Part shown: in pieces, positions 16,969 through 17,594 of the stretch
Position numbering within the stretch: position 1 is the stretch's first letter
Layout of the letters: each line of letters starts with the position of its first letter
Assembly (NCBI GenBank): GCA_937931165.1
Contig: CALHCI010000037.1
Location: 1 to 64,000, forward strand
Reading direction: 5' to 3'
From: an uncultured Granulosicoccaceae bacterium
Lineage (GTDB): Bacteria > Pseudomonadota > Gammaproteobacteria > Granulosicoccales > Granulosicoccaceae
DNA: 64,000 nucleotides
Notes under the pieces: generated by a model
What the model was told of the DNA's origin: nothing
Database searches by the model: none
What the model saw: the letters and a program-made list of their open reading frames with translations, nothing else
Translations under genes and position numbers: made by a program

Positions 16969-16973
16969 GAGGA
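16969..16973 (+). promoter_or_regulatory. Ribosome binding site for the TGA-containing gene
   Basis: GAGGA with a 9-base spacer before ATG 16983. It decides the start: translation begins upstream of the in-frame TGA at 17025, whereas the alternative start at GTG 17049 has no such site. Confidence 0.8.
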
Positions 16974-16982
16974 CAAAAAATA

Positions 16983-17594
16983 ATGAGTGATCCGCAAACA
17001 CTTGAAGTATTCAGCGACTACGTTTGACCGTGGTGTTATCTCAGTACCGTGCGTATTGAAAAGATAAAAACCAATCATAACGTCGCCATACATTACACCC
17101 ATTTTCCACTGCACCCGGAAACACCAAACGAAGGTAAAACACTCGAAGCGCTGTTTGGTACAGACGCCACTGAAATTGCCAAAAAGAATGCGCACATGAA
17201 AGGCTTGATGGACGCTGAAGGACTTCCCTATGGCGTGCGAACGCATACCTATAATAGCCGTCTGTCTCAGGAGCTGGCAGCGTGGGCGGTGACACAGGAA
17301 GGTGGCGACGCTATTCACGATGCGTTTTTCAGGGCTTATTTTGTCGATACGAAAAACATAGCACTGGTTGGTGTATTGCTGGATGTGGCGGAATCTGTTG
17401 GTCTTGACCGCACAGCGGCAGAAGAGGTGCTTGTTACCCGTTCTCACCAGCATGTTGTCGATGAAGACTGGAGCAAATCACGCCATTACGGGGTGACCGG
17501 TGTGCCGACTTATGTGGTAGGGCAAAATGGTGTTGTCGGTGCGCAGCCCTACGAAGTAATTGAAAAGCTTGTGGTGGACGCTGCTAAGGGTTAG
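16983..17594 (+). CDS. DsbA-family (FrnE-like) oxidoreductase, probable selenoprotein with UxxC active site
   Basis: From ATG 16983 the frame reads MSDPQTLEVFSDYV, then TGA at 17025-17027 (codon 15), then PWCYLSTVRIEK and on without interruption to TAG at 17592-17594: 203 residues if TGA is read through. FrnE-type DsbA proteins normally have FSDYVCPWC here, so the TGA sits exactly where the catalytic first cysteine belongs; selenocysteine gives a U-P-W-C redox motif. The rest fits the family: FPLHPETPNEG, the helical insert with FFRAYFVDTKNI, and the cis-proline loop GVTGVPTYVVG. GAGGA lies 9 bases before ATG, and a SECIS-like hairpin follows the TGA. A start at GTG 17049 would delete the first strand and the active site. 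Family members are cytosolic thiol oxidoreductases. The alternatives are a point-nonsense pseudogene or a sequencing error. The selenocysteine machinery (selA, selB, selC, selD) is not in the window. Confidence 0.85.
17032..17072 (+). promoter_or_regulatory. Candidate bacterial SECIS hairpin
   Basis: Inner stem CAGTAC (17042-17047) pairs with GTATTG (17053-17058), five Watson-Crick pairs and one G-U, around the 5-base loop CGTGC. The loop begins 20 bases after the TGA and has G at its second position; both match the published bacterial SECIS pattern (loop 16-37 bases from UGA, G in the first two loop bases). An outer helix can form between GGT/TTAT (17032-17039) and ATAA/ACC (17064-17072). 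A competing 6-bp stem (17029-17034 with 17046-17051, two wobbles) is weaker. Folding was done by eye. Confidence 0.6.

Follow-up and report, generated by a model that had tools for sequence, protein, structure and literature searches.

A probable selenocysteine-containing FrnE-type oxidoreductase gene in an uncultured Granulosicoccaceae bacterium

The window analysed here, a 64,000-nucleotide stretch of DNA from an uncultured Granulosicoccaceae bacterium, contains a gene whose UGA codon 15 is very probably read as selenocysteine (Sec) by means of a SECIS-like hairpin, and whose product is probably a cytosolic thiol-disulfide oxidoreductase of the FrnE type with a UPWC active site. The evidence consists of the reading frame itself, its homology and fold, an exact correspondence between the TGA codon and the first active-site cysteine of its relatives, a constrained hairpin behind this codon, and Sec machinery in the genome and in related genomes. 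The gene adds a genus of uncultured Gammaproteobacteria in which a cytosolic disulfide enzyme is predicted to contain Sec, and its full frame corrects an annotation that would drop the entire catalytic motif. The features of the locus are listed in Table 1.

Table 1. Features of the predicted selenoprotein gene (positions in the window)
Feature	Position	Strand	Description
Probable Shine-Dalgarno sequence GAGGA	16969..16973	+	9 nt 5′ of ATG 16983
Predicted FrnE/DsbA-like selenoprotein gene	16983..17594	+	203 residues, U15-P-W-C18; PF01323, 122 bits; AlphaFold/PDB matches
In-frame TGA, putative Sec codon	17025..17027	+	shared by all 15 distinct Sec-type homologues; the 78 others have TGC/TGT
TGT, Cys18, resolving Cys of UxxC	17034..17036	+	three codons after the TGA; Cys in 94/94 loci
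SECIS-like hairpin	17041..17059	+	7-bp stem, 5-nt loop CGTGC (17048-17052) at a distance of 20 nt from the TGA
GTG, start that a gene finder would pick, not the likely start	17049..17051	+	in the hairpin loop
Pro175 codon of GVPT	17505..17507	+	invariant in a 30-sequence alignment

The reading frame and the codon at the active site

The frame opens with an ATG, ends at a TAG (17592-17594) and is interrupted only by the TGA at codon 15. The first-pass annotation had described a GAGGA ribosome site ahead of this ATG, and it is found there; several relatives likewise have a purine-rich site 5′ of a start codon that precedes the TGA by 42-45 nt. The frame had further been described as open and typical of its family on both sides of the TGA, which agrees with the match of the read-through product to the DSBA domain (PF01323) over residues 6-196. 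The AlphaFold model has a mean pLDDT of 95.3, and its best PDB matches are the FrnE structures 5coh, 5cnw and 5cp1 (TM 0.88-0.92). The TGA falls, as claimed, on the first cysteine of CPWC when aligned with FrnE (5cnw) and SCO1869 (3gl5), and in the model residue 15 is placed where the first long helix (residues 16-31) begins, as in thioredoxin-fold enzymes. The N-terminal CxxC in a DsbA-like thioredoxin domain, by which the FrnE subfamily is recognised, is present as U/CPWC. Pro175 of GVPT corresponds to the cis-proline position of the family, which in the thioredoxin fold faces the active site. NCBIfam has no model specific to this protein. The 14 residues that precede the motif show no evident signal peptide, so the product is probably cytosolic. 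In a search for a conserved operon, an upstream proS was common only to G016 and G007, which are the nearest relatives, and an FrhB-like neighbour occurred in G007 alone, the locus L021 ending before that position; since these neighbours are limited to the nearest relatives, no functional link is claimed.

Within the order, the gene occurs in 13 of the 48 genomes searched, in 14 copies that each contain exactly one stop, a TGA, and a scan of public genomes gave 80 loci. There are 15 distinct Sec-type genes (L020-L033 and L054; L034 is a duplicate of L022), which come from a Rokubacteria MAG and from 13 genomes belonging to the same family as the window. In each of these genes the TGA at codon 15 is the sole in-frame stop. 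The 78 more distant homologues all have TGC or TGT at this position, and no homologue has any other codon, while Cys18 is universal. The first-pass annotation had proposed this comparison and had named unrelated premature stops in close relatives as an observation against its reading; codon 15 proves to be either TGA or a cysteine codon, and the only stop met is the TGA at that codon. No further close homologue was found in a phylum-wide draw of 399 genomes, indicating that the Sec form is sparse, and a tblastn search against plasmids gave no match.

The SECIS-like hairpin and the selenocysteine machinery

The 19-nt hairpin sequence (TCAGTAC-CGTGC-GTATTGA) is almost letter-identical in every TGA gene, silent sites included. 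It folds in 15 of 15 Sec genes against 4 of 78 Cys genes, and RNAalifold finds the 17041-17059 helix as the sole helix. At codons +4 to +10, counted from the TGA, pairs of the 15 TGA genes with the same residue share the codon in 91% of cases; elsewhere the share is 52% upstream and 47% downstream in the Sec genes, and 52% in the Cys genes. In L025 an A-U pair is replaced by G-C through changes on both sides of the stem, and a mismatch is also present. The hairpin varies so little that covariation is otherwise thin. The bacterial SECIS model comprises a stem of 4-16 bp, a loop of 3-9 nt with a G within its first two positions, and 16-37 nt between UGA and loop (PMC13188914). The hairpin of the window falls within this model, with 7 bp, 20 nt of spacing and the 5-nt loop CGUGC, in which the G at position 2 is followed by U. 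The folding energy is -12.7 kcal/mol for 54 nt and -5.9 kcal/mol for 30 nt around the hairpin, to be read against a SECIS limit of ≤ -7.5 with the caveat that these windows are not matched to the published length. An Rfam scan at the site gave no match to a SECIS family, its sole match (E=5) being due to chance. The hairpin dictates the protein sequence, which accounts for LSTVRI after the motif in Sec members as opposed to LGDNRV in the Cys-type homologues L035-L093.

The genome of the window is a draft of 238 contigs, estimated as 94.9% complete. It encodes a tRNA-Sec (78 bits), which ARAGORN confirms as SeC with a TCA anticodon, and SelD as part of a 721-aa fusion, with the SelD domain scoring 245 bits (cut-off 125). 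In this protein (G000:C132:5775-6698, L019) a pyridine nucleotide-disulfide oxidoreductase domain (Nterm_to_SelD) precedes the SelD part, and the NCBIfam fusion_not_SelD model gives the fusion 435 bits, under its cut-off of 700. SelB is represented by its C-terminal 298 aa, truncated where contig C227 begins, and scores below the whole-protein cut-off. SelA was not found in this draft. Since 13 of 13 other genomes of the genus carry SelA, each together with tRNA-Sec, its absence is probably an assembly gap. The survey of selA, selB, selC and selD proposed by the first-pass annotation is therefore positive for tRNA-Sec and SelD, partly positive for SelB, with the C-terminal half at a contig edge, and negative for SelA. 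Genomes of the order with the TGA gene have tRNA-Sec in 12 of 13 cases and SelA in 11 of 13; G003, which is 84% complete, has the TGA gene and neither of the two. The genus g5 (27 genomes) is without the FrnE-like TGA gene and mostly without tRNA-Sec. The genome of L054, far outside the order, has a tRNA-Sec.

A second TGA selenoprotein was sought in the window's genome in two families and found in neither. The search with TIGR01591 for a TGA-containing formate dehydrogenase gave an uninterrupted family-level match. For the GrdB/PrdB-like selenoprotein that is linked to selA in a sister genome there is only a 28% paralogue without TGA, so this selA-linked block is absent from the assembly or from the genome itself. 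The sister genome in question, G014 of the same genus, has a second TGA-interrupted frame directly upstream of selA (L114:2866-4119, minus strand), with U184 in LPVUPNC, which resembles known GrdB/PrdB-like selenoproteins.

The earlier claim that the codon is translated with Sec is thus supported by tRNA-Sec, SelD, a partial SelB, the TGA and Cys relatives and the SECIS-like hairpin. In the mechanism that we infer, SelB and tRNA-Sec would read the UGA as selenocysteine, directed by the hairpin with its loop 20 nt downstream. The reaction would probably begin with attack of the U15 selenolate on a substrate disulfide or oxidised thiol; Cys18 would resolve the mixed selenide-sulfide, and an external cytosolic reductant, such as thioredoxin or glutathione, may reset the predicted enzyme.

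Other readings of the TGA codon

When a draft metagenome assembly shows one in-frame stop within a gene, this usually marks a pseudogene or a sequencing error. That the TGA is such a nonsense mutation or artefact is nevertheless almost inconceivable, because the same TGA, and no other stop, is present in 15 distinct genes that range down to 60% protein identity, and a codon-by-codon comparison places the codons both 5′ and 3′ of it under purifying selection, with differences mostly at third positions. A TGA shared across relatives, among codons that evolve as protein, rules out both a nonsense mutation of recent date and a sequencing error. The TGA could also be a true stop, followed by a functional protein that starts at the GTG at 17049 and has no catalytic motif. 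This GTG opens a 181-aa frame and, being part of CGTGC, does not vary among the 15 Sec genes. However, it forms the middle of the hairpin loop, which explains both its conservation and the absence of a ribosome site, and the 14 codons before the TGA are also conserved as protein, including a DYV that is invariant in the 30-sequence alignment. The first-pass annotation had argued that no ribosome site precedes the GTG and that a product starting there would lose the catalytic motif; both points are confirmed, the missing motif being UPWC, and translation from the GTG is exceedingly unlikely.

Recoding of the UGA as another residue, either tryptophan by a code change or suppressor, or cysteine, would keep the frame open as well, as read-through alone has this effect, and the absence of SelA from the window's own assembly is in keeping with it. 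Several observations make this reading very improbable. TGA is the stop codon of 11 of the 40 mechanically called ORFs of at least 200 aa in the window, the relatives have cysteine and never tryptophan at codon 15, and the hairpin is accompanied by tRNA-Sec, SelD and part of SelB, with SelA in every one of the 13 sister genomes. The gene could instead encode a selenoprotein of other function with the same fold, such as a glutathione-dependent isomerase or a kappa-class GST-like enzyme, since HCCA isomerase and GST-kappa structures also match the model (TM 0.75-0.80). We consider this unlikely: the FrnE structures match far better and can be aligned by sequence, and U/C15 and C18 are both invariant in the 30-sequence alignment, as expected of a dithiol enzyme. 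The preferred reading remains a selenoprotein of the FrnE type.

Evolution and relation to known proteins

The Sec genes do not group together in trees, whether the hairpin codons are included or left out, and in the tree without these codons, in which some branches are long, a single Sec clade is rejected (p-AU 0.0003). Since the Sec genes do not form one clade, Sec and Cys appear to have switched several times. As the hairpin is almost the same in all Sec genes, repeated loss of Sec to Cys, or lateral transfer, is a better fit than repeated gain. Tentatively, Sec may even be the older state in the FrnE subfamily, lost to Cys repeatedly, with SECIS relics in L102 and perhaps L058, a view that we regard as possible rather than established. 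If it is true, the frozen hairpin, which is identical in the Rokubacteria MAG, would mark a single Sec gene of old origin or the lateral transfer of that gene. A SECIS-like hairpin persists in the Cys-type gene L102:1501-2091, from a Geobacteraceae MAG; its loop is likewise CGTGC, its stem is compensated, and it may be left over from a change of Sec to Cys. The Cys gene L058:964-1557, in a genome without tRNA-Sec, retains 15 of the 19 bases of the Sec hairpin consensus but has lost the fold. L039 (Cys, Betaproteobacteria MAG) and L054 (Sec, Rokubacteria MAG) are sister genes, and both bins are labelled 14_0903_12_30cm, which suggests lateral transfer or misbinning. Sec/Cys gene pairs of this kind, in which the SECIS hardly varies, allow the direction of Sec/Cys switching to be studied.

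The Cys-type homologues of Rhodospirillales and SAR116 (L035-L093) have 42-60% identity to the window protein over the full length and differ by a Cys codon, giving CPWC instead of UPWC, and by the lack of the conserved hairpin. FrnE of Deinococcus radiodurans (DR_0659; 5cnw, 5coh) and SCO1869 of Streptomyces (3gl5) are more distant in sequence, with 27% identity, but have closely similar structures (TM ~0.9) and CPWC at the same position, where the window protein has a predicted Sec for the first Cys; all are predicted to be cytosolic. D. radiodurans FrnE is described as a cytosolic disulfide reductase/isomerase that is reset via a C-terminal CX4C, a motif found in many but not all FrnE members and missing from those of D. 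maricopensis and S. roseofulvus (PMC8945050). The window protein has no Cys after residue 18 and thus lacks the CX4C of D. radiodurans FrnE, implying that it is reset in a different way.

COG2761 is presumably the FrnE group. DsbA-like selenoproteins of COG2761 with a UxxC motif were described in 2005 from nine sequences of the Sargasso Sea selenoproteome (PMC1088965), and a 2026 review still lists a 'DsbA-like protein form 1' with PF01323 and UxxC (PMC13188914). Compared by description, the Sargasso Sea family and the window gene share the Pfam domain, the Sec at the first position of UxxC and a SECIS right after the UGA. The window gene is distinguished by its origin in a probable Granulosicoccaceae-type gammaproteobacterial lineage and by a SECIS that is nearly invariant and is also present in a Rokubacteria MAG. 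The first-pass description as a probable new selenoprotein accordingly holds for this gene, which is new, but not for its kind, known since 2005 (PMC1088965). The idea of a Sec-containing FrnE is not new, and the gene is a well-supported addition to a family that has been predicted since then.
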